In this document: positions 8,343 through 63,453 of the stretch, in pieces
How the letters are laid out: each line of letters begins with the position of its first letter
Numbering within the stretch: the first letter of the stretch is position 1
Assembly: GCF_051622035.1 (NCBI RefSeq)
Contig: NC_135357.1
Span: forward strand, 35,013,691-35,077,690
Source of the DNA: Arctopsyche grandis
Lineage: Eukaryota; Arthropoda; Insecta; Trichoptera; Hydropsychidae
Direction of reading: 5' to 3'
Length of the DNA: 64,000 bases
Made by a program: the position numbers and the translations under genes
The notes under the pieces: model-generated
Databases searched by the model: none
What the model saw: only the letters and a program-made list of their open reading frames with translations
What the model was told of the DNA's origin: nothing

Positions 8343-8752
8343 ATGAAAAAACTGAAAAAATGAAAAAAATGAAAAAAATGAAAAACTGAAAAAATGAAAA
8401 AAATGAAAAAACTGAAAAAATGAAAAAAATGAAAAAAATGAAAAAACTGAAAAAATGAAAAAAATGAAAAAACTGAAAAAATGAAAAAAATGAAAAAACT
8501 GAAAAAATGAAAAAAATGAAAAAAATGAAAAAACTGAAAAAATGAAAAAAATGAAAAAACTGAAAAAATGAAAAAAATGAAAAAAATGAAAAAACTGAAA
8601 AAATGAAAAAAATGAAAAAACTGAAAAAATGAAAAAAATGAAAAAAATGAAAAAACTGAAAAAATGAAAAAAATGAAAAAACTGAAAAAATGAAAAAAAT
8701 GAAAAAACTGAAAAAATGAAAAAAATTAAAAAACTGAAAAATATGAAAAAAA
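8343..8752. repeat. A-rich minisatellite (TGAAAAAA/CTGAAAAA units)
   Basis: About 400 bp of near-regular units, ATGAAAAA alternating with CTGAAAAA. Almost all purine on this strand. It abuts the GC-rich array directly. Confidence 0.9.
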
Positions 8753-8799
8753 AAAAAAATTTGTTCCCCATACTGGTTGATGGTTGATCGTCCGTCACA

Positions 8800-24640: not shown

Positions 24641-26028
24641 TCATAACCTCGAATTTCCACTTCGACGAATCACACTTAAAAGCTTCACATTCGGCGATTG
24701 ATCTGCGAAGATATCGCTTTGCGGGTCATTTGATACTTTGCTACTAAAATTAACTGAGCTATCGGCTAACTCGGTGAATTCTGTGATACTATTTGAGTTA
24801 TTTTCATTTTTGAAATTACATTTAATCTTTCTCGTCCACATTCCTCTCGTTTTGTCATTGGCGAAGACGAAAAATACGCACAGGACAATACCTTGCGTCG
24901 TCGACGTAATGCAAAACAGGTAATTAAAAATCAAGTATTTGGAGAGTAGTCCAAAAATCCACGTCAATCCGAACAAAAAGAACAGCAGCAAGCTTATAGA
25001 AATGGTCCTGTGCACTTCCCGGGAGTCATTTCGTCGTGTCATGGCAGATTTTCCGAAAACTTTGTAAAATATGAAACAAAATAGCACGAAATTGACACCA
25101 ACGATCAACACAACTGGCAAGAACACCGCAAACCAAAATCCCTGACCGCTTGGGTAACAGAACAAAATGCCTTGCTCCACAGAATCAAGTCGACTGTAAT
25201 TTGTATGATCGACGCACAAAAGGATCACCACTGGCATCAGTGGAATAATCCAACCGCAGATGCATGCCTTGAGCAATCTGTGAGAGGACCCATCGTTGAA
25301 AACCTTCACCAACTTCTTGTAAGCGAACACTGCCACGATGAGCATCCAGCAGAAGTTGGCCAGCAAGCTGTAGTGGAGCAGAGCGCCTAAAATGGTGCAG
25401 TTTAATTTGTCGAGACGACTCTCCAGAATATCGCTGGTCATGAATGTGATCATGAGGAATGCTATGGTTATAGAGAGGTTCAAGTACACCTTGTTAGAGA
25501 ACTCTGCCCTCCACTGCTTGAACAATATTGCAGTCAGTACTATTAAAAATAAGCCGATCAGCGATGCTGTGCACCCACAATAAGAGATGATCTTCAGTGG
25601 CAATCTGTGATTATAAATCTCTTCTGCCGATACAGTTGGATTGATCAAGGCGAAATATGTCAAATGGTTACACCGACACGAACGGAAATCATCCGATTTA
25701 CTTTTTATCATCTCACACCCTTCCGTCGACCAGTTTTCCAGTTTCGTATCCCAAAAGACACACGTTGCAGGCGATAAGCTATCGTCGAAAGATCTAAAGT
25801 GAATGATCACAAATTCACCTTCTACGAATGGGTTTGTAAGGTTTGTTGAAATTCCTATAATTTTACTTTTCATCTCATTGGCCATTTTACCATTTTTTGT
25901 TTGGAATAGTATCTCATTATGCCACACCACTATCGCCAAATTGCTAGTAAGATTTTCTTTATTGAATTCGTGTAATTCGACGATGATTTCAGCAACTTCC
26001 GGATTTTCTAATGTTTCATTTAATTTCT
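24641..26028 (-). CDS. Terminal exon of the receptor: GPS 2, seven-helix domain and tail
   Basis: After the phase-1 acceptor the exon encodes the end of the GAIN domain and a full GPS: CVFWDTKLENWSTEGCEM, then CRCNHLTYFALI, with the HLT cleavage triplet intact. Seven hydrophobic segments follow, beginning LPLKIISYCGCTASLIGLFL and VYLNLSITIAFLMITFM and ending YLFCITSTTQGIVLCVFFVF. A cytoplasmic tail of about 70 residues is rich in Ser and Asn. The cysteines before TM3 (LNCTILGALLHY) and in extracellular loop 2 (GILFCYPSGQGFW) are in the class B2 positions. This is the only 7TM in the locus. Confidence 0.9.
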
Positions 26029-29000
26029 CTAAAATTAAAAAAAACGGTTATTATTATTTTTTTAATTTCAACTATGTTACTTTTAAGTCCATTCGAGACT
26101 ATTGCGAATATTCAATACCATATCTGATTGTATTTATATGAAAAATAACAAATAAACGTTGCAGCTTTTATAGAGGTCCATTTATAAAGGCCCACCCCCT
26201 CTCCATGAAAAAATCCGCACGCTAGGATAATGTTCTGGTCTTTGCATTGATGTATAATACACTAGATGGGCCCTGACGTGTGATTTTGGTCGGAGATCTT
26301 GTCTTCACTAACTGATGGGTGCGGGGGGTTTAACTAGCGGGGAAGTTGAGAAAAAAAAAGGTTTTTTTCCCTACGACGCAGCGGTACCTACCTACCTACT
26401 GAGAGAAACTATGCATGCGCCATTTATTTTGCATGCGCCAAAAGGGAGACCAGTATAAAACGTGAGGGCGGATCTATGTGTATTATATATCTATGGGTCT
26501 TTGCCTTTGCGCACACTTTAAATTAAGTGGGATGGGGTCTTTATTAAATAGAAATACATCTACATCCCTAATGACTAGACTTATTGGGAATTTCCCCGAT
26601 TATTAGGATAGTCGTCGGGGAAATTCCCTATAACGTTCCATCAGTGTTCAAAGCAAGAGAACAAATAAGCTTGTAAAAAATGTTTTTTCTAAACAATTAA
26701 AAATAGTTCCCCGGATCCTTAGCCCAACTCTAGTCATAAGTCTCAATGTATGTACATATAATATGCATAATTTCGCCGGACATATCTAGTAATGAGGCTT
26801 GTTTTCTGCTAATACTCAATCGCAACGGTCTCAATGTACTGCAAAACTATTCAGAACGAAAACACACTGAGTGGTATGGGACGTCATGTGTCCTTTGCTT
26901 TCCGCTGTGACCGTAGACCGTAGATGTTCCCCAAACCGAATTCGGGTGTACTTGCACGTGCAGAATGCATATGTTTGGGAAGTCGGACGTGTATGCATAT
27001 CCATATGTAAGCGACAAGTTTCTCCTACATTTCATCAAATGTGGGATTCACCGTTATCGATCACTGTCAAGCTAGGATAAAATATCACCAAAAACACTCC
27101 AGGGGGTAATTTTTGGGACTGTGTACCATGTACAGGGGTGCTGCGTTTTTTTTCGCATTTTTAAAAGTATCTAATAAAAAAAGCACGTGCCACGTCCCAC
27201 TCAGTGTGTTTTCGCCTGTTTCGTTGTTTTATGTAACTTTTCATGTACTCCTGTGTCGTTATTTATTTTTACTTACCTTCATTCAAAAATGAGATTCCGC
27301 TACTAGTCATATCGATAGCTCGATTTTTACTTAACATAGCACCAACAACAGAATCCAATCCATCAGATCCAATTGAAATTATTCCCACTACTAAATTATG
27401 CGCGCTAATGTGTATTTCTTCATCAAGAACATTCACGCTATTTAAAATGATGTCGACGTCTTCTAAAACTTTCACTTTTTCTGGCTTCTTTTGGACACTG
27501 TTTAATTTATCGACCAAAAGTTGAATGTCATCTTTGATAATATCGTCCTTACTCATAATATATTCAAGTGTTTCATTCAAAGTTTCATAAATTTTAACGA
27601 ACTAAAACGTCAATACATAAGTTGAGGAGAAATTTAAAAATTTTCAATGAAATTTGAATAAAAAAAATATACATTACTTCATAAAATAAAAAGTTTGACT
27701 TATTGTGACACTCAAAATGTCTGCAAATCGATTCACCAAAAGTTGTACAAAACAGAGTACGGTTACCTTCTCGACTGACGCTGCTATTATCTGAAATAAA
27801 AATTATTTTTAATTATATTTTTTTTTGCATTGTTGCACAAAATAGACTTTTCAATTTTGAAACTCTATCTACTGAAAATGATATCGCTGAAAATCTTGAT
27901 TTTTCAGCTTTAATTAAAGATTTTGCTGAAAGAAAGGCTCGGAAAGTTCACTTCTGAAATATTATTCAACCACTTTGCTGCCGGTTCCAAGTCTGGAAAA
28001 AGGAGGATGGTAACCAATTTTTTTTTAATTCTAGGGGCGCTTAGATGAGGGCGCCATGGGTGTAAGGCCTGCACTGGATGTAGAAACACAAAATTTGGGA
28101 ACAAGAAAATTCTCAAACAATACAATGAATCAACTTAAGAGACAGTAAGTGACTGTGTTGATGGCTGTTCAGACTAATTGTCTGAGGTCGGCTTTTGTGG
28201 TGTCAGAACCAAAACACGAAAGTCAGCCATCCATCTTGTTTTACTGGGCATTTCGAACGCTAAATGAAAACATGTCATATATAGAACTCTAATACTAGCT
28301 GATGCTATGGCCTGATCATAGAAAAGTGACAAATATGTACGTCTGCATATATACATATGTATTGCAAAGCTTTTTTATTGAGCCCTTGAATTGGCCATCG
28401 CAAATTGAACTCTTCGACCTCCTACTTTAAAACTATCAGACGCATTCCTCTAAAATAGACTCAACCTACCTGCTGCAATAATTTTTCTTAAATTTTGTTG
28501 ACACAGCAAACTTTCAATCTTAACAATTTCGCCAAGGTCTGATTTAGATCTTAGAATTTTATTCATAACACTTTTGGATACATCAACACGAAACACAACA
28601 CTCGAATTGGTGTAGACATGTTTGAGTCTATATGCATTTGAATTCGTTTCCATTAAATAAGACTTGAAGAAACTGCAAATAAATGTCAAATATTTCAATC
28701 TTTATATGCAATCTTGCGACTGATTAGTCATGGAAATGTTACATACCTGGAATTTTCAAATTTCTCTAGATAGTGTTGTTTGATGTCAAAGGCATCGGAG
28801 GATTTCTCAAACTCAAATTGGATATCATAAGTGTTTAGCCAATTATATTCGCTCTTGACGAATGATAACTTGGTAGTCTCGTTGTATTGGAATTTTTCAG
28901 TGTTGCTGGTAACACACCAATAGTCCCCGCATCCCTCAGTTTCCAATTCAAAGGTTGATGATTTTAAAGTTGTCATGAGACCAACATTTGTCGGATAAAA

Positions 29001-32000
29001 ATCCACGGAATCAGTGAAACACATAATGTCTTGCACCGATACGGAGGTGTTACTCTCAACGGAAATATATATTCCCTTGCTAATACAAAATTAGTCAAAA
29101 GAGATATTAAAATATAAACAACAAAAAAATACATACATACATATACATATTAACTTAATTGAAATTTAGAATAATACGGAAGAGTGCATGGTTTTTGATT
29201 TGAGGAACAGTTAAATACTTACGAGACTCTCTGAATTGTCATTTCAACTTTTTTTGCACGGTCGCACATCACCTTGTCTGTCATTTGATATTCATGAAAC
29301 AGTCCCGCATCCTGATATAAGATGATGTAAAATTAGATCATTCAAGTGATCGATGAAAATTTATCATTTTAAAGAGAAAATGTGTAAATAGAAGTCAGAT
29401 GAACCAGTGAATGTACATATACGCAGTTTAAGACGCAGACACACAGAATCGTACGGTACAGCATGCCTAGGTAGATTCTAGCTGCGAATGGGCGCGTCTA
29501 ATTTCTAGAAACCGGCGGACACGTCCACCAATTTTTTTTGGTCTCCTGCTTCCTCTGACAATAGAGAGGTCTATTGTTATTTTAAGTTCTCACCACCTAA
29601 GTCTGCTTATGTCATTGTTAATTCATAAGATCTTATTATTTCGACAAGTTTCTCCCACAGGTCTTCAAATATGGGAATCCCGTTATCGATCATTGTTAAA
29701 CCTATGTCAATAAAAGGAAAATATATCACCAAGGGGTGAGTTTTGGTATAGCATATATCAGGCGTGCTAGCGTTTTTTTTGCATGTGTAAAACTACATAT
29801 CTATAAAACCTGGTACCGTGCCACTCTGTGTGTCTGTGCTCTTAGAGTATTTTATACAGCAATTGGCGAGTAGCTAGCCTGTGTAAGCGCGTCTTATTAA
29901 CCATCCTAGCTAGTAACTCGCATCTGTACTTCCATTATACACTTGCTGTCATAAAAATTTGACTCACGGCTGATTCATTTCTCATAAATATAAAGCTTTG
30001 GCTTTCCTTGTTCACGTAGCAATATACACCATCTTCTAATGTTATTTTTGCATTTAGACCTTGTCTATTTAGTCTTTGGCATTTTCTTTTTTCATCATCA
30101 TTGGATACAAATAATTTGTTTACATTTCGAAAAGTTAGACACGATTCTAGACTACTTTTGTAGTCGATCTGCTTACATGACCAATTTCTGAAATGTGCAT
30201 ACCTAACGATCGCACGAATTACATACAATCTGGGGAGTTCATCTGTGCAACTTTTAACTGTGAAATTTTGAGTTTCAACATCGATTGCTAGACATCTGAA
30301 ACTACTGTTGTCTTTAGATAAACCATTGACTATATCCAACAGCAAAGGCTTCCCCATAGTTTGACGATCGTGATTCCAATTGAAGTAAACTCCTCCATCA
30401 TTAGCACGTTTGTAATCGGTCCAGAATAACCCTCTCAAATTTTTATTATTCTGGTCGACCAATGTAGAAAAATTCAATGGATTCAGATGTATACTGCTTT
30501 CAGTATATCTATCCTCTTGTTTTCCAATTTTTATATCCACACAAACATTGACCCCGTTGTGCACCATTAGTTTAAATTTGTCCGGACAGACATATGTATA
30601 TTCAAAATTGTAATAACTCATACAGTAATCGTTTGTTTCATAAAAACCAGTCCTATTTGCTAGTAATGAATTATTCGATTCAGCTATAATAATTTCAGGA
30701 CCTGTCTCTATTATTTTGACATGTTCGTTTGAATTGGTCAAGGAATAATATGTTAAGTAGTAACATCGACACGAATAGAAATTATCAATTTTTTTTATCA
30801 TCTCGCATCCTTCCGTTGACCAGTCTTCCAAATTGGTATCCCAATTGATGCACACTTTAGGAATGGAGTCTTTGATGGAAGATCTAAAGTGAATATCTAC
30901 ATATTGACCTTCGACTAATGGATTTGACAAGTTAATTGGAATTCCGATTATTCTATTTTCAATTCTACGATCCATCTCAAGCTCATTTGTCTGGAATAGT
31001 CTCTCGTTATGAAACACCACTACTGCTAAATTATTACTGATGGTTTCTTTATTCAAATTGTGCAACTCAACGATGATCTCAGCATCTGACGGGTTTTCTA
31101 TTGTTTTAATTAATTGCTCTATAAATAAAAAAGAAAGCTCGTCATTTTTCGATACATACATAGTTTTATTTATTACTAGCTGAACCTGGCGTGCGTTCCC
31201 GTTCCCGTTTCCGTTTCCGTTCCCGTAACCGTTCCCGTAACCGTTCCCGTAACCGTTCCCGTTCCCGTTTCTCGATGTGTTTCGATAAGTGAATGTTTCA
31301 GTTTCAAATTAATACTTAATAATCAAATTAAATTACAGTAATGCTAATTTGTTGGAAAAACGCAGGTGGCGAATAGCCGTGTCGTCAGGCGGTGAAAGCC
31401 GTGTCGTCATAAACCAACAGGTAACGTGGTTACCAACGAACACATTTCCTTGACTTCACAATGGCGCTTCAAATTTTCGCGTCGGTAAAATCGTAATTAC
31501 GAATATTATTATTAAGAGATTTTCCCCCGTTTTTTTTTTCACAGTAAGCTTCCCGAACATGGATACAACAAATCCTGAAAGTTCCATCGTAATCGATTAA
31601 GTGGTTTAGTAGCCTATACGAGACAGACAGACAAACAGACAAACAGACATTCATTTTTATGGTTCGGTGATTATTGGTCACAAAGCGCTCGCCCAAAAAT
31701 CGCTAAAATCTCTATAACGGAACATCTGGCAGCCGAAAAGTCCATCGTACTAATGATAACTATCATACTAACGAGAACTCGAGTTCCAAATATTCCGTAT
31801 TCGTGATTTTCATGGCAAAAATTTACTTTTGGGCGATGTGACTAATAATGCAATAGATGCAAAGGATATCGCCTTTTTGAAAAACCTATATCGGAACCAA
31901 TCTGCTGTCGTGAAGGTTGAAGACTTGAAAACTGAAAAAGTAGAAATTAGTCGAGGGGTACGGCAGGGATGTGTATTGTCGCCCATGCTTTTCAATCTGT

Positions 32001-35000
32001 ATTCGGAAATGGTGTTCAACCAGGCAGTCGATAGTCGAATAGGAGTAAAAATAGGCGCCGAAATTATAAATAATATCCGTTTCGCTGATGATACGGCAAT
32101 ATTGACTGAGAGTGCCGAAGACCTGCAATCGTTATTGACCGCAATTGATCATTAATGCAAAAAATGGGGTCTGTCTATTAATATCAACAAGACAAAATCA
32201 ATGTAAGTGTAACGTACGCCCCCGCAGCCGAAGGAGTGGGGGGAAAACTACCCCCGCCCTCGGATGCTGGGGAGTGGGAGAAAGTACCGCTACTTTCTCA
32301 GCTATAAAAGGAGCGCCCTTCTCTTCGGAAGTCGAGGGAGTCCGCGCCCAGCGCCCGCAGTGCACGGACGTACCCCAAACCGCCTCGGCGTCAGCCGCGC
32401 TGTAGTTGTCGTTTCCCGCGTTACACACAGCTGTGTCGTTAACAGCTGCATCGCCGAAACCGCGATGTAACTACGACTCGATACTTCGAACGTGTCCCTC
32501 TGGGAACGAGATGCTGTCCTAACAACAGTAACAAAAAAAAAACACAGTGATAGTGACAGTGACAAGTGACAAGTGACAGTGACACCCACCCACCCACAAA
32601 CCCACCCACAAGATGGGTAACCCACCACAACGTGATAGTCGTAGTGACAAGGACACTAATACACAAACACAAAAACAAAAAAAAACAATCACTAGAGACG
32701 ACTTCAGTGAACTATTGGAGGCGTTTCGAACCGTGAAGGAAGAAAACGCTTCCCTCAAAAAGACCATCGAGTCGATTCTCGCGACTCACGCAGCCCAACG
32801 AGCTGCTGACCAAGCAGCCCACTCCGCCCAACTGGGAAACCTTGCGTCAAACATGACGCAGTCCCAGTCGATGATGACCACGAAGAACATGGCCACATCC
32901 CCCCAGACGTCACCTAAAAAAAAAAACGGTAAGCGTAGAATGGTAAGCCCGCCCAACACCACACGCACACAACCACAGTCGCCCCCACACAATAGCAACA
33001 GATACGCGCCACTCGCGGAACTCGACTCCGACCCCGATTTCGATTCCGAATCCAACTCCAACAAAATGGAGGTTACCGCCACTGCCAAGTCCCCACCTGC
33101 ATCAGCAGCTGTACCCGCACTTACAAAAACCCCGGCACCACAACCGGAAGACTACTTATTCCCGGTTGGCATAATCCGTAACAGGAATGTTACACAAAAG
33201 CGTCCAACTCGCGACGTGCCCACCCAACAAGCGGCCCCCAGCGCCCCGTCGGCAAATACGCCCCAAACCCCTCGCACAGCACAAATTCGTGCACCCCCTC
33301 AAACCACAAGCCCCGCTCACCCATCTGGAAACACCGTCTCTGACACTCCTTCACAAAATGTCCAAAGAGCAAAGGTTGCTCCAATCTTCCTTAGGTTGCC
33401 ATCGGACTACAAGGCAGTTCAAAGGAAACTCAACCAACATAACTACAAGTTCACGGCCGTCTACTCTGAAAACAGAGTAAAAATCTCCCCTCTCACCATC
33501 GATGATTACCGTAAAATCACGAAATTGCTCCAAGAGCAACAATTTCAGTTTTATGCCCACCCTCTAACGGAAGACAAACCGCTCAAAGTAGTCATTAGAG
33601 GCATTAACCCCAACTACTCCGAATCGGAAGTCCTCGCCGAGCTGGCCAAACTTGGCTATAAAGCCAGTAAAGCCACCGTCATGAAATCACGACGTGACAA
33701 GCGCAACATGCCCATGTTCACAGTCGAGACCACACGCGACGAAGAGGGGAAGAAATTATTCAACCTCTCCAGCATTTTCGGCCAACTGGTTCGCATCGAA
33801 TCACTTCGTCGTGGTGACACTGTACCGCAGTGCCACCGCTGCCAAGGCTTTGGACATGGCTCCTACAACTGCAATGTCGCCCCCTTATGCATCAAATGTG
33901 CAGGACCCCATTTGACCACTGACTGTGCGTCAACAGCCTCCACCCCAACCTGCACCAGCTGCAGAGGCCCTCACGTTTCCAGCTACAGAGGCTGCCCTTC
34001 AAATCCCAACAACAAAAGCAGGAAGAACTCCAGTCAACCCCGAAACCCCAACCCCTCCCACCCCCAACCAAAGAAGACCAACGTACCGCAATACAGACAC
34101 GTAGACACAAATTTTCCTCCCCTAACCCCACCCACCCAACAAACCAACATCAACACCAGCTGGAACCCAAATCAAAACCAAGACCTTTCAAATCGGATGA
34201 GCAAAATCGAACAGTCCATTGAGTCGATAAATGCCATCCTGATCATGCTCACCCGACAGAAAAAATGACTTGTTACCTCAAGATCGTTTACTGGAACGCT
34301 TGCAGCATACTCTGCAAGCGTGTCGAATTCGAGCAATTCCTGCTCCAACACTCCATTGATATCGCACTAGTAAACGAAACTTGGCTCAAACCCGGTAATA
34401 GACTACACTTCTCAAACTACACTACATACAGAAACGACAGAATAGGCAAAGCCGCCGGCGGCACAGCCATATTCATCAAACACACGATCCAACACAACTT
34501 GGCCCCGCGGCCGATCACCACAGGAATAGAACTGACGTCGGTAGAAGTTTGGACCGACACCGGCACCCCACTCATCCTCCACGCAGTCTACAACCCTCCA
34601 AATCAACACTTACTCACCACCGACTTAGACAACATATTCAACACCAACAAAGCCACCATTGCCGCAGGCGACCTTAACGCCAAACATTCCAGATGGAACA
34701 GTCGAGCCACTAACAATAATGGGAAAATTCTCCTTAGTTATTCCCAACTCTCAAACCCAAAAGTCTCCGTCACGGCCCCAGATGAACCCACAAGAATCCC
34801 CATTAACTTCAAAGGTAGACCTGATATCTTAGACATCGTTCTTACTCAAAATTTTCCAGGTGCGCAGTCCTTGACTGTAGTAAATGATCTCTCTTCCGAC
34901 CATCACCCGGTCATACTAGAACTCACCAACACCCCTGTAACTATAAACCCCATCCTCCGAAGTACCATATCTTGGGAGAAATTCTCAACTCTCCTTCATC

Positions 35001-44000: not shown

Positions 44001-47000
44001 AGCAGAGCGCGGCAAGCGGCGGGCCAAACCATCAAGATCCACCGATGGATACGGGTGACCCTTAATCTGCAGGGCGAAAAGTTTCCGTGGAACGTAGCGG
44101 TGGCGGATATCCAGGATCCCATATTGTTGGGACTGGACGCACTGAGACATGTCCGAGCTACGTTCGAGTTGGGCGGAGAGGAGAAGTGTATCATCAGGGG
44201 CGTGCAACGCGAGAAAGGCAAGAAAAACGCACCTGCTGTCAAGAGCATCCGCGGGGAAGTACCCCACCCGAAGATCACGGCGTTACTCGAGAGGGCCGAT
44301 ATTCTGCCAGAAGAGAAACGGCGCCTCGAGACCATGATTCGGGAAAATCGGAAAGCGTTCGCCCGGGACGAGAAGGACCAAGGAAGGACCACCAAGGCGG
44401 TCCACACCATCGACGTGGGAGACGCGAAGCCGATGAAACAGCCGCCGAGAAGGATACCGCTAGCACGGAAAGAGGAAGTACGCGCTATGATCGACGACTT
44501 ACTGAAGCAGGGCGCGATAGAACCGGGGCACGGGCCGTGGGCGTCACCGGTAGTTCCGGTCGCCAAAAAGGACGGGTCGCTAAGGATGTGCGTGGACTAC
44601 CGGAAACTGAACACCGTCACCAAAATAGATTCACACCCCATCCCGAGGATCGACGACACTTTCGACCAGTTGAACGGAGCGAGCTATTTCAGCACACTGG
44701 ATCTGCAGAGCGGATTCTGGCAGGTACCGGTCGCCCCGGAAGACCGCGAGAAGACAGCGTTCGTAACAGAGTTCGGTCTGTTTCAGTTCAAAGTGATGCC
44801 ATTCGGGTTGTGTAACGCGCCAGCGACGTTCGTACGGTTAATGACAAAAGTGGTCGGTGACATAAGCAATGTCCTCGTGTATCTAGACGACATTATCGTG
44901 CACAGCAAAACTTACGACGAACACTTGGTGCATTTAAACAATGTGTTCGAACGGATACAGGCAGCCGGCCTTAAATTGAATGCAGACAAGTGTCGATTGT
45001 GCTGCCGCGAGGTCGAATTTCTGGGACACCGAGTGTCAGCCGAAGGAATTTCGACAGATCCGAAGAAAGTCCAAACCGTGCGGGACTGGACGACTCCGAA
45101 AACACAAACCCAAATGCGCAGCTTCCTGGGACTGGCCACGTACTACCGAAAATTTGTGCGCAATTTCGCCGAGATCGCGAAACCACTCCATCAGCTAACG
45201 GAAAAAGGGCGCGAGTTCAAGTGGACACCGACGTGCGAACAAGCGTTCGAAAAGTTGAAAGAAGCGCTGACTACCACGCCAATTATGTCGTATCCCCAGC
45301 CGGGAGAGCGATATGTGTTGGACACCGACGCCAGTCAACATAGCATCGGTGCAGTTTTGTCTCAAGTTCAAGGGGGGGTGGAGAAAGTGATCGGGTATTT
45401 CAGCCGGACAATGAACAAACCCGAACAAAACTATTGCGTGACCCGAAAAGAACTATTGGCGGCAATTAAAGCCATTCAACACTTCCACCACTACCTATCG
45501 GGCTCGAAGTTCACGTTACGAACCGACCACTCAGCGTTAACGTGGCTGAAGAACTTCAAAAGACCGGAGGGCCAGTTGGCGAGGTGGCTGGAAATTCTGG
45601 GCCAGTACAACGTGACCATCATTCATCGACCGGGGATAAAGCACGGGAACGCGGACGCACTATCGCGAAGGCCGTGTACGGAAGAGTGTCCCAAATGCTC
45701 ACGCGCAGAGACAACCGATCAAGAAAACGACTCGGCCCGAACGGAACCAGTAGAACCCGCAGAACCGGAAGCACGAGTAGCCCTCGTAGGGATCTTGCCC
45801 AACGAGATGACAAACTCGACGATCGACAAAATCGTCGAGTGGAAGAACGCCGGAACGAGACCACCGTGGGAAACAGTATCTGCTGAGGAGCAGGAACTGA
45901 AAATACTGTGGACCCAATGGGACGCATTGGAGGTGGAAGGCGGTAAGCTGTACCGGAGATGGGAGAACACCGCGGGAACACGTCACACAAAGCAGCTGGT
46001 GGTGCCGACTGAGAAGATACCCGAAATCATGTGGGAGATGCACAACGCGCCCACGGGGGGCCACTTCGGTATCAATAAAACGTACCGAAACGTGCGCCAA
46101 AAATATTACTGGCCGACGTGTCGAATCGACGTCACCCAGTGGTGCGAACGATGCGCACAGTGCGGGGCCCACAACGGACCACACCGAAGGAATCGCGGGG
46201 CACTTCAACCGTACCTTTCGGGGACGCCACTACAACGAATGGCAGTCGACATTCTGGGTCCACTCCCGGCCACCGAACGAGGAAACCGATACATACTGGT
46301 GGCCATGGACTACTTCACGAAGTGGCCGGAAGCGATTCCACTACCGAACCAGGAGGCAGAGACCGTAGCAGACGCCCTGGTAGAACAAGTGTTCACGCGG
46401 CTAGGCGTCCCGAACGAGCTGCACTCTGACCAGGGACGAAACTTCGAGTCGAAGTTGTTCCGTCAGGCACTGGACCGGCTGGGCGTACACAAAACGAGAA
46501 CAACACCATACCGACCTCAGTCCGATGGAATGGTCGAGCGACTCAATCGAACCATGCGGGCGCACTTGACGAAGTTCGTCAACGACGAGCAGGACGACTG
46601 GGACACGCTGGTTCCGCACTTCCTCATGGCATATAGAGCGGCCCAACACGATGCGACAGGAGCATCACCAGCAGCCATGATGTACGGACGAGAACTGCGC
46701 ATGCCGGCGGACCTACTATATGGGGGCCCTCCACCAGACAGCGAACCTCAAGATCCACACCGATATACCACGAAGTTGACCGAAGGCATGGCCAAGGTAC
46801 ATCGGTTCGCCAGAGCCCACCTCCGGATGCAGAATAGCCGTATGAAGACGCGATACGACGTCCGCAGAACCGAACCGGCGTACGAAACAGGTGACCGAGT
46901 ATGGCTGTACAACCCTGCCAAGACTCCAGGGCTTTCACCAAAGCTGCAATCGTTGTGGGAAGGACCGTACACCATAGTGACTAAACTTAGTGACGTAGTA

Positions 47001-50000
47001 TATAGGATACGCAGGGAATTCGACGGCTCAAACCGATTAATGGTGGTGCACCTGGATAGACTCGCAAGGTATAAGGCCGTCGAATATTGACTGTAATTGT
47101 ATGTAGCTGTTTTGTAATTGTAAATTAATGTGTAAATTAATGTGTAAATTAATGTGTAAATTAATGTGTAAATTAAGGTGTAAATTGGTGGGTCGATCGG
47201 GACGATCTCTCTTAAGAGGGGGGTTGTGTAGCGTTGCATAGGGAGACGCCCCGTGGACCGGTGACGTCATGGTGACGCCGACCAATGGTGGAGTCGGGCG
47301 TTGTGGCCAATGGCTACACCCGACTCCTTGACCAATGACTGTACTTGTTGACGTGTCATAAACGTGTATGCGCTGAGCGCTCTATGATATAAGAACGGTA
47401 CGCTCTCGATCGGTGGCATTCGGATCCTGACCTCCACCGGACGAGCAGCAATAAAGAACTGGAACCTGCCTGCGTGTTTTCTTGTACCTCGACCTGACTC
47501 CACTTACCTTTGAATACTCTTCAATATTATAAAATCTTATAACCAATTTTTGAGTCACATCTAACAAACCGATTTTATTTAAAATTTGCACTGATCTATG
47601 ACAATACAACATTCTATCAAAATTTGAATTGCCAGTCGAAAAAAAAAGTTTAATATCTCTATCTCTCTGGTACTTCGCTGTTCATTGTTACTTACCGTTA
47701 TTCAAAAATGAGATGAAATCGTTGTTCACGTCAGTTGTTTGATTTTTACTCAACATCACACCAACAATGGGATCTGGTCCTTCAAATCCAATTCCGGTCA
47801 CTCCTACTACTAAATTTTGTGCGCTGGCATGTATTCCACCTTCAGAAACATTAACTTTATTCAAGATAGTATTATCAACTTCTAAAATAAAAATTTTCGG
47901 CCTCTTTTCAACGCCATTTAATTCGTCGACCAAAAGTTGAACGTCATCTTTGGTGATATCGTCCTTATTGAAAATATATTCTACTGTCTCCTTAAACGTA
48001 TTAGGATTTCTAACAAACTAAAACAGAATAACGCTAGTTAAGGGAAATTATATAAAAATATAAATGCCAAATGAATAAACAAATTCCACATTACTTCATA
48101 ACAATTGTTTTTTGATTCATTGTGACATTCAAAAGGTCTACACAAACCGAAGTCACCAGAATATTTGCAAAATAAAAAGCGATTACCATCTTTGATGACG
48201 CTGCTATTATCTGAAATAAATAAAAGTATATATCTTGAATACATTTCTTAATTTAGCCGTGAACTGAAGCGGGAAAAGAATATACAGGAACACATGAAAA
48301 CATGTGTGATCAAATTAAAAGATAGAAAGACAGTTCAACTATAATATGTTGTGATCTCAATCCAGTGCCAGCTCCGCAGATTTTTTTATATAAATTTTAT
48401 TTTAAAAAATATGTACATTAAAATGGATAAAAAAATAATGACCGCTGTGACCTATGTATGTTACCTTAATGCATCACGCCGACGCCGGTCTTACGTAAAA
48501 GCAACAACAAAAACTAAATTAATTATCAATCATTCATGTTAAATCTCATGAAACTGACAAGTTCATCAACGCGATAATCAAACAAGTCAAAATACTCCCT
48601 TATCACGTTAAGGAACCGGAAAGCCTCTACAAGAGATGAAATACCAAAAGTAGACGTTCTCGCACAATAGGTTGAAAAAGTCGACTTTCAAGAGCCCAAA
48701 ATTTAAGCTCCGATAAAATCAAAGGGTTGTCATTACTTCCCTTTAATATTCCAAAGAAGGAATTTGCATATGGCAAGAATCCTTCTCGAAGATAGTGAGT
48801 CGAAACCTAAGATATCGTGCAAAAAAATGTGAGAAATAAATACAGGATCGAGGAAACTTATTTTGTACTCTGTCAATCAAGGGAAAGAATTTCGTTTCAC
48901 TGGAACTGATAAACCCAAACTCTAAAATGCTCCAAACAAGAAAACAATAAATCAACCCGATAATGTTTGGGTCTGGTTCACTGCATCGAAAGTCGAAAGA
49001 TTGAAAAGCAAATATTGGAAAGCAAAGATCGAAAATCGAAAGATCTTAAGTCGAAAGATCGAAAAGAATGTATGCATGGTAAACGGTACTATGTATATAT
49101 GTATAGGTATAATATGGAACAGCTTGTTCCTCTTGTATCCTGCCCGCGCAAATTAAGTAAGGCTGTACGACAAAAAGAGAGATAATTTGTCCGCACGCCA
49201 CTGATATATTTATTTATTTATTTAATAGTTTTATAAACTACCCGCTCTTCATATGAACATCGTCATAAATATTTTGATTTTTCGACTTTCGATGCGGTAA
49301 CAGCCACCGATAATATTTGCATCTTGATAGTAGTGAGCTTTACGCAAAAAAATCCAAGCATTTTGGTAGCCTTACGGCACATATTTGTAATACATATAAG
49401 TCGACAATTTGAAGTCACTCCTAAATATAATAGTATGCCAAGATCCACAGATGAGTCAGCTCTCGGTAACTGATAGTTCTGAAAGCTATAAAAAAACTTA
49501 ATAGAGGATAGTGGCCTTGAATAAGAAGTAATATGACACTTTGTCAAACTGAACGGTAGACGATTATTAATAGACCATTCACAACAATTCTAGGTCATTA
49601 TAGTTGGAATGCCTACTGACTGTTCTAAAAATCTTCAAGTCATCAGCAAAAAGGAAAATTCAGAGTGATTAATCGACATACCAATATCATTAACTATCGT
49701 ATATAATAATTGTCTAATGCGTGTGTGTGAAGTGCTGCCCGTTAACCCTGCTCCGTCTTTCTTTCTCCCCTTGGAATCGTATATTGTGGAAAGAGACGCG
49801 GCATAGTGTGGGCACAAAAGTGGGCTTTGCGCATGCCCGATGCTCTTACACTTGGGCAGTGGATATCGTATATAATAATTATTTGGTTTATGTTGGCCTC
49901 ATTTGCTGCCAACATCACCCCCACTCAATACGATCCATCGCATCTTTCCTAAGAGAAAGGAAATTTCAGGTCAAACTCAAGGACCACATATCAACTCAGC

Positions 50001-53000
50001 GAGGCATCTCCGCTGGGGTTCCCCAAGGCTCCATCCTCGGCCCCACACTATTCTACCTGTACACACACGACATACCCACTCCTACACATAGGTACACAAA
50101 CATAGCACAGCATGCCGATGACACCATCTTAGCGAGCTCCGTCGGCCCCAAGGGAATCTCGCTCGCCCTCCAGAAGTACTCGGACCAACTGGTAGCGTGG
50201 TACGACAAATGGCTGATGAAAATCAACCCGGACAAAAGTCAGGCAATATTCTTCTCCAGACGTAAAAAAAACGGTGTAAACCAGCCAAGCCAGTCATTAT
50301 AAATGACCAACCAGTCAACTGGACCACGTCTACCCGCTACCTGGGGGTAATAATCGACCGCAAATTAACCTGGAGACCCCACATCACTAACGCTGTGCGT
50401 AGAGCTAGGGCAGTTGTGTCAAAGCTTTACCCACTATGCAAACCAAACAGCAAGCTCTCGCTTAAAAACAAGTGCTTGCTGTATAAATCCATCATCCGCC
50501 CACAAATCACGTACGCGAGCCCCGTGTGGGCTCACACTACCATCTCCACAGATCCATACTCACACTACAGACAGTTCAAAACAAATTCTTGCATGCCGCG
50601 GGCAACTACGACTGGTACACAAAAAACAACATAATTCACAATGACCTAAACATTGACTACCTTGAAAAACACGTACACAAACTTGTCGTGAACTATTTCA
50701 AGTCTCTCGGCAAGATAGACAACCCCCTGATCAATTCCCTCAGTGAGACCAAACTCACGTTCAATCAAAGACCCATCGACATTTTGAAGATGGGTATAGG
50801 CTAAAACTAGTATTTAGTCAAATTTAATCAGAAAACCACCACCCAACGGTCTCAAACCTGTTAACCACCCACTAACACACTAACCCAGACAATATCCCAC
50901 AGATGATGCACTAATTTCGCTTAGTGTTGCAGACTAAAAAAAAAACATACCATAAGCGAACAGCTGCCAGCCCGCACTACAACATCAACGCGAACTAGAT
51001 CAGATACAATACGATAGATCGATAGTCATGGAGTGAACTCCAAGGAACTATCTTTAAAATATTAACCACTACCTGTCGGCCGATCAAATGGCGGCTTCCG
51101 TTGATTCGAATTGTGATTTCTTGCCGAGTACACAACTGTGTACATGCAGGCCACTAGTAAATAATAATTGACCGAGGTTAGACCCTTGTAGTACACCAGA
51201 TGAAGCGTGATAATCATTCGATCCATAAATACCGCAAGAAACATACAGATTTTTGTTAAAAAAAGCGGACTAAATTACCAGGCAAGTCAAATTTAGAAGG
51301 CTTTCGAATAAGAATGCCATAAAAGCTTTTCAATGGGCCGAACGGGGCCGTTTAAAATGTGTAGGACTGACACCAGACGAAAACATATACATATTATATG
51401 GGGCTTAAATACCGGTTGCTGCTACGGCTGTTAAAAGATAAGAATCGAATATGTACATATGTATACTCCAATCAGATGGGACACGTGGCGAGGGTGACGA
51501 AATGTACATAATGCCTAACTACACCACACCACGTCTATATGGATTGGTCATCAATAATTATCATTATTGAATTCTTCGATTTCCTATTGATTCAAACTAT
51601 CAAACGCACTCCTCACAAGCTCAATAGATGCAACCTACCTGCTGCAATAGTTTCCCTTAAAATTTGTTGACAAAGCAAACTTTCAATCTTAACAATTTCG
51701 CCAAGGTCCGATTCAGAAATTTTAATTCTATCCATTACACTTTTGGATATATCAATACGAAACACAACACTCGAATTGGTGTAGATGTGTTTCAGTCTAT
51801 ATGCATTTGAATTCGTTTCCATTAAATAAGACTTGAAGAAACTGCAAATAAATGTCAAATATTCAATCTTTATATGCAATCTTACGCTGATTAGTCATGA
51901 AAATTTTACATACCTGGAATTTTTAAATTTTTCCAGATAATGTTGTTTAATGTCGAAAACATCGGAGGGTTTTTCAAATTCAAATTGGATGTCATAAGTG
52001 TTTAGCCAATTATATTCGCTCTTGACAAATGATAACTTGTTAGTTTCAATGTATTTATCACCGTTGTCAGTGACACACCAATAGTCACCACATCCGTCTG
52101 TTTCCACTTCAAAAGTTGATGAATTTGAAATTTTCAAGCCGACATTTGTCGGATGGAACTCCATAGAATCAGTAAAACATATGATGTCATGTATTGATAC
52201 AGCGCTCCTGTTTTCAACGGAAACAGATATCCCATTTCTAGGATAAGAGAAATTATTGAACCGGTTTTTAATATTAATAATATACATACAATTTTAATTT
52301 TAATTTAAATATAATCAATATCATTTTCGATACATTATTATTTAATTTCTAATGAATTTAACAGTTATTATTATAATACAGCTATATTTTTTTTAATCAT
52401 TTTTAGACAAGATGTTTCGCACATGTTACTAAAAGTGTTTCGCAACCCCAAAAGGGCTAAGAACCACTAATATAGAGTCCAATACTTCCAGACCGATGTT
52501 TCCAGGGGCGTCAGTTGGGGGGGGGGGGGTGCTGGGTTGACGCCCCTGGATGCTTCATATAATCATTTAAAAATGTATCAATACTTACGAATTTCTCCAA
52601 ATTTCCAGTGGCATTTCTGTTTTTTTAACCAAAAGTTCACATTTCACCTTGTCCGTCATTCGATATCCACGAAACAGTCCCGCATCCTTAAATTAGATCA
52701 TGTCAAAATTAGAACATTCAAAGTAATCAATGTGAATTTTTCATTTTAAAGAGAAAATGTGTAGGATCGAAGTTAGATAAACTAGTGCATGTAGATACAA
52801 ACGTATACGCAGATTAGAGTATTTCAGACAGCACCTGGCAAGTAGCTTGCTTATGTAACCATCATAGCTAGTATCTCGCATCTGTACTTCCATTATACAC
52901 TTGCTCTCATAAAAATTCGACTCACGGCTGATACATTTCTCGTTAATAAAATGCTTCGGCTTTCCTTGTTCACGTAGCAATATACACCATCTTCTAATGT

Positions 53001-53723
53001 TATTTTTGCATTTAGACCTTGCTTACTTAGTATTTGGCATTTTCTTTTTTCATCATCATTGGATACAAATAATTTGTTTTCATTTATAAAAGTTAGACAC
53101 GATTCTAGACTGTTTGAGTATTTGATCCGCTTACACGACCAATTTCTGAAAGGTGCATACCTGATGATCGCACGAATTACATATAATCTGGGGAGTTCAT
53201 CTGTGCAACTTTTAACTGTGAAATTTTGAGTTTCAACATCGATTGCTAGACATCTGAAACTACTGTTGTTTTCAGATAAACCGTTGACTATATCCAACAA
53301 CAAAGGCTTCCCCATAGTTTGACGTTCATGATTCCAATTGAAGAAAATGCCTCCATCATAAGCACGTTTGTAATCGGTCCAGAACAATCCTCTCAAATTT
53401 TTATTATTCTGGTCGACCAATGTAGAAAAATTCAATGGATTTAGATTTATACTACGTTCAATATATCTATCGTCTTGTTTTCCAATTTTTATATATACAC
53501 AAACGTTTTCACCATTTTGCACCATTAATTTAAATTTTTCCGGACAGACGTGCATATAATCAAAAATAAATTCGTTCATACAGTATTTGTTCTCTCCATA
53601 GCCACCACTTTTTTTGGCATATATTGAATCATTCTGTGCAATTAGTTCAATTTTTTGGGCTTCTACCATTATTTTGATGTGATGTGAACACAAAATGAAG
53701 ATTGAAAACCACACAACTTCCAT
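24641..53723 (-). CDS. Double-module adhesion GPCR: ectodomain-GPS-ectodomain-GPS-7TM (13 exons, 1820 aa predicted)
   Basis: Exons, 5' to 3': 53723-52926, 52686-52589, 52237-51914, 51841-51639, 48210-48095, 48017-47696, 31118-29968, 29311-29223, 29079-28747, 28672-28470, 27790-27678, 27601-27277, 26028-24641. All have GT/AG sites and sum to 5463 nt with no internal stop. Exon 1 starts with a signal peptide (MEVVWFSIFILCSHHIKIMV) and a cysteine-containing ectodomain. The next five exons lead to a GAIN/GPS in exon 7. That exon continues straight into a second, closely similar ectodomain, whose own exons lead to a second GAIN/GPS and the class B2 seven-helix domain. Intron phases repeat exactly in the two modules. 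Family: adhesion GPCRs, plasma membrane, ligand unknown. The alternative is two genes, one without 7TM and one without signal peptide; the in-frame bridge favours one product. Confidence 0.72.
26245..26495 (-). mobile_element. hAT-type MITE, copy 2 (receptor intron)
   Basis: 251 bp, inverted relative to the copy at 1928. It shares CTACGACGCAGCGG, CACTAACTGATGGGTGCGGG and GCATGCGCCAAAAGGGAGAC. Bounded by the perfect 8-bp duplication GGTCTTTG (26237-26244 and 26496-26503). It lacks about 100 bp of interior present in copy 1. Confidence 0.82.
26857..27214. mobile_element. TIR element, family CGAAAACACACTGAGTGG, copy 1
   Basis: CGAAAACACACTGAGTGG at the left and its exact inverse CCACTCAGTGTGTTTTCG at the right. 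The interior has ACAAGTTTCTCC and CCGTTATCGATCA, shared with the element at 29434. Non-coding; target duplication not clear. Confidence 0.7.
27791..28469. other. Receptor intron, no further feature recognised
   Basis: An AT-rich intron between 27790 and 28470 with no repeat family I can name. Confidence 0.4.
29434..29842. mobile_element. TIR element, same family, diverged copy 2
   Basis: Inverted ends GCAGACACACAGAATCGTAC and GGCACGGTACC... in reverse (right side GTGCCACTCTGTGTGTCTGTGC). It shares CGACAAGTTTCTCC(C/T)ACA, CCGTTATCGATCA(T/C)TGT and AATATATCACCAA with copy 1. Lies in a receptor intron. Confidence 0.6.
29968..31118 (-). CDS. Bridge exon: GPS 1 fused in frame to the second ectodomain
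   Basis: 383 codons plus a 2-base split codon. The first part (AEIIVELHNLNKETISNNLA, CINWDTNLEDWSTEGCEM, CRCYYLTYYSLTNSN) is the counterpart of the GPS in the last exon. Where that exon goes on to TM1, this one passes into EHVKIIETGPEIIIAES and DYCMSYYNFEYTYVCPDKF, the counterpart of HHIKIM... and KYCMNEFIFDYMHVCPEKF in exon 1. So a breakpoint lies at about LTNSN/EHVKI. The donor GCC|GTGAGT is the same as that of exon 1. GPS 1 has Tyr where the cleavage His should be. Confidence 0.82.
31171..31660 (+). mobile_element. Retroposon (RTE-tail SINE-like), outermost layer of the nest
   Basis: Begins ACTAGCTGAACCTGGCGTGC, carries a (CCGTTC)n array at 31191-31271, and ends CCTATACGAGACAGACAGAC, then CATTCATTTTTAT. 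The AT-rich tail resumes at 42287-42301 after all nested insertions. This 3' end type (flushed with ACAGACAGACATTCATTTTTAT) is common on short retroposons of arthropods; the exact family is not certain. Confidence 0.5.
31191..31271. repeat. Hexamer minisatellite (CCGTTC/CCGTAA)n
   Basis: About thirteen hexamers of CCGTTC, CCGTTT and CCGTAA in the 5' part of the retroposon. Confidence 0.8.
32613..34268 (+). CDS. Jockey LINE ORF1 protein (551 aa, nucleic-acid-binding)
   Basis: A Pro/Thr/Gln-rich N-terminal half is followed at about residues 255-400 by a PRE_C2HC-like domain (IFLRLPSDYKAVQRKLNQ, VVIRGINPNYSESEVLAEL, FGQLVRIESLRRGDTVPQCH). Three zinc knuckles come next (CHRCQGFGHGSYNC, CIKCAGPHLTTDC, CTSCRGPHVSSYRGC). 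Such proteins coat the element RNA and help carry it to its target. The stop overlaps the ORF2 start as ATGA, suggesting stop-restart translation. Confidence 0.88.
   Translation: MGNPPQRDSRSDKDTNTQTQKQKKTITRDDFSELLEAFRTVKEENASLKKTIESILATHAAQRAADQAAHSAQLGNLASNMTQSQSMMTTKNMATSPQTSPKKKNGKRRMVSPPNTTRTQPQSPPHNSNRYAPLAELDSDPDFDSESNSNKMEVTATAKSPPASAAVPALTKTPAPQPEDYLFPVGIIRNRNVTQKRPTRDVPTQQAAPSAPSANTPQTPRTAQIRAPPQTTSPAHPSGNTVSDTPSQNVQRAKVAPIFLRLPSDYKAVQRKLNQHNYKFTAVYSENRVKISPLTIDDYRKITKLLQEQQFQFYAHPLTEDKPLKVVIRGINPNYSESEVLAELAKLGYKASKATVMKSRRDKRNMPMFTVETTRDEEGKKLFNLSSIFGQLVRIESLRRGDTVPQCHRCQGFGHGSYNCNVAPLCIKCAGPHLTTDCASTASTPTCTSCRGPHVSSYRGCPSNPNNKSRKNSSQPRNPNPSHPQPKKTNVPQYRHVDTNFPPLTPPTQQTNINTSWNPNQNQDLSNRMSKIEQSIESINAILIMLTRQKK
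34265..36940 (+). CDS. Jockey LINE ORF2: APE endonuclease and reverse transcriptase (891 aa)
   Basis: The APE-type endonuclease at residues 5-235 has the motifs YWNACS, NETWLKPG, AAGDLNAKHSRWNS and SSDHHPV. The reverse transcriptase at about 440-760 has SYRPISLLSSLSKILERI, FGFRPQHSAVHQIH, LDISKAFDKVWH, GVPQGSILGPTLFNLY and the catalytic YADDTAILA. The C-terminal LYKSIIRPQITYASPVW region follows. The segment AAKKASNKALKELPQKA is shorter than the KKAPGPDGI... motif usual just before the RT core, so a small internal deletion is likely and may cripple this copy. The frame is otherwise intact. Confidence 0.9.
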   Translation: MTCYLKIVYWNACSILCKRVEFEQFLLQHSIDIALVNETWLKPGNRLHFSNYTTYRNDRIGKAAGGTAIFIKHTIQHNLAPRPITTGIELTSVEVWTDTGTPLILHAVYNPPNQHLLTTDLDNIFNTNKATIAAGDLNAKHSRWNSRATNNNGKILLSYSQLSNPKVSVTAPDEPTRIPINFKGRPDILDIVLTQNFPGAQSLTVVNDLSSDHHPVILELTNTPVTINPILRSTISWEKFSTLLHHTVTYPHSIHTTQEIDSAINVLTDEIQSALEASTTTTPHSPLHPQALPPDIRDLIRLKNRARKAFQRNKDPILKQRMNRLQQDVKNALWQLRNDNWDTKLRALEDGHNGFWKLSKIFGSNGNRIDRIKVGDNFVYSTADKAEALADSLQDQFSLSNSNLQSDFCQMVESSVNSYLENPAPVPIVATSPLEVQNIIKSIAAKKASNKALKELPQKAIAALTAILNATNRICYFPSQWKLANVILIRKPYSNPSLATSYRPISLLSSLSKILERILISNLNSEIAKIDLLPKTQFGFRPQHSAVHQIHRVVETVIDGFDHNMSTGAIFLDISKAFDKVWHSGLLYKMIAANITPHSIRSIASFLRERRFQVKLKDRISTQRGISDGVPQGSILGPTLFNLYTHDIPTPTHRYTNIAQYADDTAILASSVGPKGVSLALQKYSDQLVAWYDKWLMKINPDKSQAIFFSRRKKRCKPAKPVIINDQPVNWTTSTRYLGVIIDRKLTWRPHITNAVRRARAVASKLYPLCKPNSKLSLKNKCLLYKSIIRPQITYASPVWAHTTISNTSILKLQTVQNKFLRAAGNYDWYTRNTIIHNDLNIDHLDKHVHKLAVNYFKSLGKIDNPLINSLGETKLTINQRPIDILKMGIG
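37525..41722 (+). mobile_element. BEL/Pao LTR retrotransposon, fossil, broken (gag-protease only), young
   Basis: Two 640-bp LTRs (37525-38164 and 41083-41722, TGTTCCGACC to GTCTGTACA) look the same by eye and are flanked by the 5-bp duplication AGCAG (37520-37524 and 41723-41727), the size Pao elements make. One frame, 38338-40638, encodes a Pao-type gag, zinc knuckles and an aspartic protease region. No reverse transcriptase, RNase H or integrase core was recognised, so it is broken and could only move with help. Matching LTRs imply a recent insertion. It sits inside the RTE LINE. Confidence 0.85.
42302..47523 (+). mobile_element. Gypsy LTR retrotransposon, 5.2 kb, looks whole, young
   Basis: LTRs of 297 bp (42302-42598 and 47227-47523, TGTAGCG to CTCTTCA) look identical by eye. 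The 5-bp duplication ATATT flanks them (42297-42301 and 47524-47528). A primer-binding-like site follows LTR 1 (TGGTGTCAGAAGTGGGAT) and a purine tract precedes LTR 2. Parts: gag frame 42622-43779 with a CCHC knuckle; pol frame 43776-47090 with protease, reverse transcriptase, RNase H and integrase in the Gypsy order. The frames overlap by a few bases, as in family members that use ribosomal frameshifting. No envelope gene. I saw no obvious break. It landed in the AT tail of the retroposon. Confidence 0.9.
47117..47187. repeat. 12-bp tandem repeat (GTAAATTAATGT)n in the Gypsy 3' region
   Basis: About five and a half copies between the end of pol and the purine tract. Confidence 0.8.
47696..53723 (-). 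CDS. Receptor module 1: signal peptide, ectodomain and GAIN exons 1-6
   Basis: Six exons with the same phases as 27277-29968. Exon 1 has conserved cysteines and the stretch NLRGLFWTDYKRAYDGG, FFNWN, SSFRCLAIDVETQNF and TVKSCTDELPRLYVIRA, which recalls the C-type-lectin-like pattern (W..., WN, C...C); this reading is tentative. Exon 3 carries CGDYWCVTDNGDKY, exon 4 NSNAYRLKHIYTNSSVVFRI, exon 5 the cysteine-rich CRPFECHNES, and exon 6 GAIN sequence KDDVQLLVDELN. Exon 6 ends in phase 1 (G then GTAAGT), matching the acceptor at 31118. The intron after exon 6 is 16.6 kb; the one after exon 4 is 3.4 kb. Both are filled with transposons. Confidence 0.82.
48983..49295. mobile_element. MITE related to the intron foldback and to the 54-kb element
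   Basis: Ends GCATCGAAAGTCGAAA and TTTCGACTTTCGATGC are inverted. The interior holds CGAAAGATCTTAAGTCGAAAG and GCATGGTAAACGGTAC (as at 5120-5150), then CCTCTTGTATCCTGC, TTAAGTAAGGCTGTACGAC and CCGCACGCCACTG (as at 55840-55913). Confidence 0.6.
49713..49866. other. Insert of about 154 bp between two copies of ATCGTATATAATAATT
   Basis: The 16-bp sequence ATCGTATATAATAATT occurs at 49697-49712 and again just after the insert at about 49867-49882. A long duplication like this is typical of LINE-driven insertion. The insert (GTGCTGCCCGTTAACCC to CACTTGGGCAGTGG) is GC-richer than the surroundings and has no poly-A. Origin unknown. Confidence 0.45.
49911..51074 (+). pseudogene. Jockey LINE 3' fragment
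   Basis: Equivalent to 36035-37250 of the Jockey element: HSIRSIASFLRERKFQVKLK, GVPQGSILGPTLFYLYTHDI, then a damaged ADDT box. A single-base gain in an A run near 50265-50272 shifts the frame. ORF tail KSLGKIDNPLINSL ends at 50804. 5' truncated; ends CCACTAC at the 3' side. Confidence 0.85.
52503..52548. mobile_element. 46-bp hAT mini-element
   Basis: CAGGGGCGTCA at the left and TGACGCCCCTG at the right enclose a G run. Flanks GATGTTTC and GATGCTTC match at 7 of 8, an 8-bp hAT-type duplication. One of the shortest element remnants here. Lies in the receptor intron between exons 2 and 3. Confidence 0.55.
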
Positions 53724-62681: not shown

Positions 62682-62860
62682 ATCAATATTCTTTACAAAT
62701 AAAATTTTGGTTGAAAATGAACAATTTCATCACTTGCATATTAATATTTTTTTATAGCACTTGTCCTTACAAGCGTATTCTGCCTTCCTCAATTATGGCA
62801 CTGGAGATTTTTTTTAATATGCTATGGATATCCACCATAGGCGTGGTTCTATTATTTTGA

Positions 62861-63453
62861 AATCCATCATCCGCCCACAAATCACGTACGCGAGCCCCGT
62901 GTGGGCTCACACTACCATCTCCAACAGATCCATACTCAGACTGCAGACAGTACAAAACAAATTCTTGCGTGCCGCGGGCAACTACGACTGGTACACAAGA
63001 AACACTATAATTCACAATGACCTAAACATTGACTACCTTGACAAACACGTACACAAACTTGCCGTAAACTACTTCAAGTCTCTCGGCAAGGTAGACAATC
63101 CCTTAATAAATTCCCTCAGCAAAACCAAACTAATAATTAACCAAAGGCCCATCGACATTCTGAAGATGGGTATAGGCTAAAATTAGCATCCATTTAACTA
63201 ACCAGACTCAACCACCTCCAAACGGTCCATACCCGTTAACCACCCACTAACACACTAACCCCGACAGTATCCCACAGATGTTGCACTAATTTTGCTTAGT
63301 GTTCCAGATCGACAAACACTCCACAAGCGAGCAGCCGCCAGCCCGCACCACAAACATCACCGAGAGTCCGATCCCATACAACTCGTTCGATAGATAGGTT
63401 AAGGGAGTGTCACTACCCTATAAACTATCGTTAAAACGCAGCCACAAAGAAGT
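62861..63453 (+). pseudogene. Jockey LINE 3' fragment next to H2B
   Basis: SIIRPQITYASPVWAHTTIS to KMGIG, the last 105 codons of ORF2 without stops, then the family 3' UTR. The 10-bp duplication ATTATTTTGA (62851-62860 and 63454-63463) flanks it. Severely 5' truncated, hence non-functional, but the open tail points to recent insertion. Confidence 0.88.

Follow-up and report, generated by a model that had tools for sequence, protein, structure and literature searches.

Tandem ectodomain-GAIN/GPS units ahead of a lone 7TM domain in the open frame of the caddisfly locus LOC143909227

Gene structure of LOC143909227

The LOC143909227 locus of the caddisfly Arctopsyche grandis (Hydropsychidae) encodes one open chain in which two ectodomain-GAIN/GPS units precede a single 7TM domain. 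It lies on the minus strand (53723 to 24641) of the window, by which we mean the whole 64-kb stretch of DNA that was analysed. We consider it probable that this is one adhesion-GPCR gene in which the ectodomain-GAIN unit was duplicated, the distal GAIN being an uncleaved spacer and the proximal GAIN being cleaved and providing the agonist. Judged by its sequence, this layout is present, unusual and not unique, and may be regarded as a variant of the adhesion GPCR layout.

The gene model was rebuilt from splice signals and module-to-module homology and comprises 13 exons (Table 1) separated by 12 introns, all of them GT-AG. The joined coding sequence is 5463 bases long including the stop, corresponding to 1820 codons with no internal stop, and its translation is letter for letter the NCBI/UniRef protein P0001 (A. 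grandis LOC143909227, 1820 aa); the locus is already known publicly, as an uncharacterized protein. An earlier note, made from the letters of this DNA, had described thirteen minus-strand exons joining into 1820 codons without a stop, and both the rebuilt model and the identical public protein bear this out. The intron phases 0, 2, 2, 1, 0, 1 that it had read in both modules and the divisibility of the total length by three were likewise recovered, the same series being found in module A (residues 1-748) and in module B (residues 749-1820). The two junctions it had proposed for checking, 47696-31118 and 29968-29311, match at the genomic level the positions in our model. An open frame arising by chance was rejected: when the 748 codons of module A were subjected to random unconstrained substitution (300 runs per rate), the mean gain in stop codons was 10, 21 and 28 at 0.1, 0.25 and 0.45 per site, with minima of 3, 9 and 15, whereas the real module A contains none.

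Table 1. Features of the LOC143909227 locus and of other elements in the window.
Feature	Positions	Strand	Basis or remarks
Exon A1: signal peptide and first part of ectodomain 1	52926..53723	-	ATG at 53723, donor GTGAGT; signal peptide by eye
Exon A2	52589..52686	-	rebuilt model
Exon A3	51914..52237	-	rebuilt model
Exon A4	51639..51841	-	rebuilt model
Exon A5	48095..48210	-	rebuilt model
Exon A6, part of GAIN 1	47696..48017	-	rebuilt model
Intron 6, 16577 bases, several retrotransposons	31119..47695	-	
Fused exon F7: GAIN 1 end, GPS 1, linker, first part of ectodomain 2	29968..31118	-	
GPS 1, residues 705-749; Tyr741 at catalytic His position, Thr743 kept	30733..30867	-	Pfam and GPS profile
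Fusion point, GPS 1 / post-signal-peptide start of ectodomain 2	30721..30735	-	
Exon B2	29223..29311	-	rebuilt model
Exon B3	28747..29079	-	rebuilt model
Exon B4	28470..28672	-	rebuilt model
Exon B5	27678..27790	-	rebuilt model
Exon B6, part of GAIN 2	27277..27601	-	rebuilt model
Exon B7: GAIN 2 end, GPS 2, 7TM, tail, stop	24641..26028	-	rebuilt model and Pfam
GPS 2, residues 1444-1490; HLT intact at 1480-1482	25634..25774	-	Pfam and GPS profile
7tm_2 domain (PF00002), residues 1502-1740	24884..25600	-	Pfam, E 1.2e-28
LTR retrotransposon, intron 6	42302-47523		two 297-base end repeats, 100 percent identical
Second LTR-like element, intron 6	37525-41722		640-base end repeats, 100 percent identical; DUF1759 frame between
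Non-LTR retrotransposon	32583-36940		frames with PRE_C2HC, endonuclease, reverse transcriptase
C2H2 zinc-finger frames	3335-4477, 10300-11397, 21153-22232	+	Pfam for third; first two by eye

Could the chain be a product of assembly? Collapse of two haplotypes was rejected, as the DNA divergence between the alignable stretches of the two modules, 9 to 27 percent, is too high. A wrong joining of two genes appears very improbable to us: such a divergence exceeds what two haplotypes of a single copy would show, the join in the fused exon F7 has by eye a few shared bases at most, the window holds no N, and the public protein, which may derive from the same assembly, contains the same join.

It is also conceivable, though unlikely in our judgement, that the modules are read separately, module A giving a secreted or truncated protein and module B a receptor that starts from an alternative exon, with the fused chain rare or absent. 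Such a reading could draw on the 16.6 kb of intron 6 and its several retrotransposons, elements that could bring promoters or polyadenylation sites. However, F7 has no signal-like start (none of its six Met codons begins a hydrophobic, signal-like segment), its acceptor and frame are preserved, and the public model unites all 13 exons. We infer that the locus is expressed as one chain.

Domains and receptor class

Pfam reported GPS in two stretches of P0001 (family E 2.6e-21) and 7tm_2 once, while the Pfam GAIN model had no match on this protein. The protein has the secretin-type 7TM (PF00002) expected of an adhesion GPCR (class B2), and GPS 2 (residues 1447-1486 in the Pfam match) lies immediately N-terminal of it and carries the H-X-S/T motif with an agonist-like sequence (HLTYFALI). 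The distal GPS 1 reads YLTYYS in place of such a motif, and is an extra site that class membership does not need. Thus, of the two full modules and single 7TM that the earlier note had described, the two GPS stretches and the one 7TM stand, but GPS 1 is incomplete since its His is missing.

Two paralogues in the same genome, LOC143910542 (P0002, 1103 aa) and LOC143913416 (P0003, 1160 aa), share the ectodomain type, the GPS and the 7TM with P0001 but consist of one module each; they are 47 and 38 percent identical to module B, respectively. The AlphaFold model of the fused exon had a pLDDT of 31.1 (alignment of 3 rows), and that of P0002 a mean pLDDT of 59.6 and a pTM of 0.34 (17 rows). In a Foldseek search of the PDB with the P0002 model, the first match was 8ikj (CD97), with a TM-score of 0.50 by target and a large rmsd of 9.7, and the second 6v55 (the Gpr126 extracellular region), with a TM-score of 0.23 by target and a large rmsd of 25.8. 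Chains of ADGRF1 weakly matched the GPS of module A (E 0.014). These vertebrate receptors, CD97/ADGRE5, GPR126/ADGRG6 and ADGRF1, have a single GAIN adjoining the 7TM, and their N-terminal domains differ from those of P0001.

By eye, the FWTDxxRA motif and paired Cys of the first ectodomain region recall a C-type lectin. We do not claim this assignment, as the sequence tests gave no support for it: hhalign against one lectin domain of P0026 returned a probability of 0.1, a PDB profile search yielded no credible match (best E 0.066, a T-cell receptor chain), and a lectin domain was absent from the Pfam matches of P0001 and P0002. P0026 itself (1734 aa, source lgn) is a related receptor in which Pfam finds Lectin_C in three stretches and GPS in one.

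The distal GPS lacks the catalytic histidine

The two sites, CRCYYLTYYSLTN in GPS 1 and CRCNHLTYFALINP in GPS 2, differ at the catalytic position. GPS 2 has HLT followed by the agonist-like TYFALI, whereas in GPS 1 the motif is YLT, Tyr741 (bases 30759-30757) having replaced the His; the GPS Cys and Trp are retained. Following the site, GPS 1 continues as TYYSLTNS, unlike the TxFA pattern seen at GPS 2 and in the paralogues, a pattern given as the agonist consensus in excerpts of PMC12716839. As both P0002 and P0003 have the His (CRCYHLT), its loss is placed on the module A side. GPS 1 (T743) sits 739 residues N-terminal of GPS 2 (T1482).

To place these sites among relatives we used a GPS profile built from 29 of the 44 proteins found by the public search, with P0001 and P0034 left out and a seed pattern that demanded His. 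With the per-domain E limited to values below 0.1, one GPS was found in 41 of the 44 proteins, none in P0044, and two each in P0001 and P0034. The earlier note had held that one GAIN/GPS precedes the 7TM in known adhesion GPCRs and that a tandem pair would be unusual; it is indeed unusual, but with 2 of 44 proteins carrying two GPS there is no strict rule and P0001 is not unique. The P2 His was present in 43 of 43 membrane-proximal GPS and in neither of the two distal ones (45 GPS in 43 proteins), where the residue is Tyr in the caddisfly P0001 and Val in the damselfly P0034. For the two sites lacking His to be exactly the two distal ones, the chance is 1 in 990 over all 45 sites. When the seed is left aside, 16 sites remain (14 proximal, every one with His, and 2 distal), and the chance becomes 1 in 120. 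Both estimates were made post hoc, take no account of relatedness and come from a profile that leans to His.

The loss of the His and of the TxFA pattern from GPS 1 might also mean that module A is turning into a pseudogene, with GPS 1 as the first casualty. The first residues past the fusion are unconstrained (pS 0.41, pN 0.41), which would agree with such decay. Against it, module A has no stop or frame shift, its splice sites are intact, and GAIN 1 was not detectably faster than GAIN 2 in relative-rate counts, with 26 A-specific and 24 B-specific changes when P0002 served as outgroup and 24 and 19 with P0003. No speed-up was seen in ectodomain 1 either (A vs B, 18 vs 26 and 12 vs 15), and the GPS alone had 4 changes of its own on each side with outgroup P0002 and 6 vs 2 with P0003 (p 0.29). 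All these counts run over the whole period since duplication and are not proof of constraint since the fusion. A decaying gene is quite improbable in our estimate. Most likely the receptor is real, its distal GAIN uncleaved and its proximal GAIN cleaved.

Origin and divergence of the two modules

The left part of F7 aligns with exon B7 through LTYxxLxN, and its right part matches exon A1 starting where the signal peptide ends (HHIKI vs EHVKI); the change-over from the post-GPS to the post-signal-peptide position takes no more than about 12 bases. Searching the window by tblastn with P0001, P0002 and P0003 revealed no second 7TM, nor a relic of one between the modules. In a hydropathy scan the linker showed no hydrophobic segment, its best 19-residue mean being 0.63, and across residues 30-1490 the 19-residue mean never reached 1.6 (maximum 1.51).

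Sequence comparison indicates that modules A and B arose by tandem duplication. In a GAIN tree of 21 regions from 19 of the 44 proteins, with six rows on long branches, the damselfly distal region included, the caddisfly pair were sisters (100/99), nested with P0002 (98/92) and P0003 (94/96). The origin proposed in the earlier note, a tandem duplication followed by loss of the first 7TM and the second signal peptide, is retained in its first step, while the losses may be unnecessary. A single internal duplication, beginning past the signal peptide in exon 1 and ending past the GPS in exon 7, would yield F7 directly; whole-gene duplication with deletion would need more steps to reach an identical sequence. 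Given the change-over of about 12 bases, the lack of a 7TM relic and the lack of a hydrophobic segment, the internal duplication needs fewer steps, and we prefer it by parsimony only.

The alternative, which concerns the origin and leaves the receptor the same, is a tandem duplication of the whole gene and subsequent deletion of the first 7TM, the spacer, the second promoter and the second signal peptide. The genome does contain paralogous receptors, P0002 and P0003 (which speaks for their existence and not for a tandem position), and the modules are old, with a synonymous divergence of 0.69 to 1.05 outside the low-divergence exons. Yet this course requires an in-frame deletion with its ends just past GPS 1 and just past the signal peptide, and the tblastn search showed no relic of a 7TM; we hold it rather less probable than the internal duplication.

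Between the modules dN/dS was 0.367 over 731 codons, a value that covers the whole time since duplication and is not proof of constraint since the fusion. The synonymous divergence is a mosaic: dS was 0.255 in exon 1 and 0.174 in exon 4, and within the range given above in the other segments. Sliding windows placed the low-divergence tracts at about residues 59-283 and 407-480, and in the DNA, introns included, they pair 53565-52850 with 30607-29893 and 51913-51639 with 28746-28470. Intron 3 is 93 percent identical between the modules, and intron 1 is 79 and 83 percent identical in two blocks. Gene conversion between modules A and B is a likely cause of these tracts, as far as their pattern tells.

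A similar layout in a damselfly and searches for further cases

The uncharacterized protein P0034 of Hetaerina americana (1494 aa) has, like P0001, two ectodomain-GPS units and one 7TM, and its distal GPS, like GPS 1, is without His. Its two halves match each other (27 percent over 489 columns, E 1e-52), and the profile detects its distal GPS weakly (score 10.9, E 0.0011). In the GAIN tree its regions pair with each other (97/99) and not with the caddisfly regions, which argues that the damselfly duplication was separate from the caddisfly one. The two-GPS, one-7TM layout would then have arisen at least twice, if the gene model of P0034, known here as a protein, is right.

A second caddisfly with this layout was not found when residues 1-1500 of P0001 were searched against 5091 candidates, which gave P0001 only; the search was insensitive, missing P0002 and P0003, which were within its length limits. 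The F7 search gave no match among the 7995 candidates scored, under length limits that excluded P0001, P0002 and P0003. In the open-licence literature of PubMed Central we found no mention of a tandem, multiple or second GAIN, of GAIN duplication, or of a GPS-GPS-7TM or two-GPS GPCR. Excerpts of PMC13197933 contain no mention of two GAIN, two GPS, multiple GAIN or tandem, and those of PMC12716839 none of two GAIN, multiple GAIN, multiple GPS or tandem.

Proposed mechanism and significance

The receptor would be ordered as signal peptide, ectodomain 1, GAIN 1, ectodomain 2, GAIN 2 and 7TM. At the L1481-T1482 bond GAIN 2 is predicted to cleave itself; the tethered agonist that it holds, TYFALINP, would activate the 7TM, GPS 2 being the only site that could free an agonist. 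GAIN 1, without the His base and about 740 residues further from the membrane, would stay uncleaved. It may form a covalent adhesion or force-bearing spacer in the extracellular arm, doubling the binding surface, so that a pull on either ectodomain would be released at GPS 2.

ADGRB1 and ADGRB3, like GPS 1, have a GPS without the P2 His (RLS), and in these two receptors the GAIN that lacks it precedes the 7TM. According to passages of PMC13062082, the nucleophile is activated by the His of H-X-S/T, which acts as the base, and ADGRB3 (RLS) was obtained uncleaved; CTF-size fragments of ADGRB1 and B3 (RLS) are also described there in mouse brain, and therefore absence of the His need not abolish cleavage everywhere. 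Parts of PMC12488864 report that GAIN cleavage drops with distance from the ER membrane: an E2 ectodomain without a membrane tether was cleaved poorly, and a spacer cut cleavage from 45 to 10 percent, with a reduction also in the other receptors tested. From the role of the His base and this effect of membrane distance, as described in these portions of the two papers, we infer that GAIN 1 is uncleaved. Loss of the distal site would fit the distance effect, and the distribution of the His over proximal and distal sites agrees with a membrane-proximity dependence of cleavage as presented in the same excerpts (PMC12488864).

The standard view of adhesion GPCRs couples one GAIN to one 7TM. When a chain has two of them, the GAIN as a fold is set apart from the GAIN as a protease and holder of the agonist. 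We tentatively suggest, while leaning somewhat to the doubtful side, that tandem-GAIN adhesion GPCRs arise repeatedly in insects. Each distal GAIN, no longer tied to the 7TM and lying too distant from the membrane for cleavage, would lose its catalytic His but retain the fold, serving as a mechanical or ligand-binding module that is not cleaved. This repeated loss of cleavage from distal GAINs whose fold is kept is the bolder claim, and two cases underlie it. If true, tandem-GAIN receptors would offer natural proteins in which the membrane-proximity rule of GAIN cleavage can be put to the test.

Intron 6 and other features of the window

The LTR retrotransposon at 42302-47523, which we take to be of the Ty3/gypsy type, is a very recent insertion and contains a zinc-knuckle frame and a protease/reverse transcriptase/RNase H/integrase frame. 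The non-LTR element has two partial copies in the window, one at 49903-50810 with 94 percent identity and one at 62860-63181 with 93 percent. Just upstream of F7, at 31272-31193, there is an imperfect GGGAACGGTTAC repeat that is intronic yet lies in the open frame of F7. Outside the locus, self-comparison of the window also revealed tandem-repeat blocks at 7863-8760.
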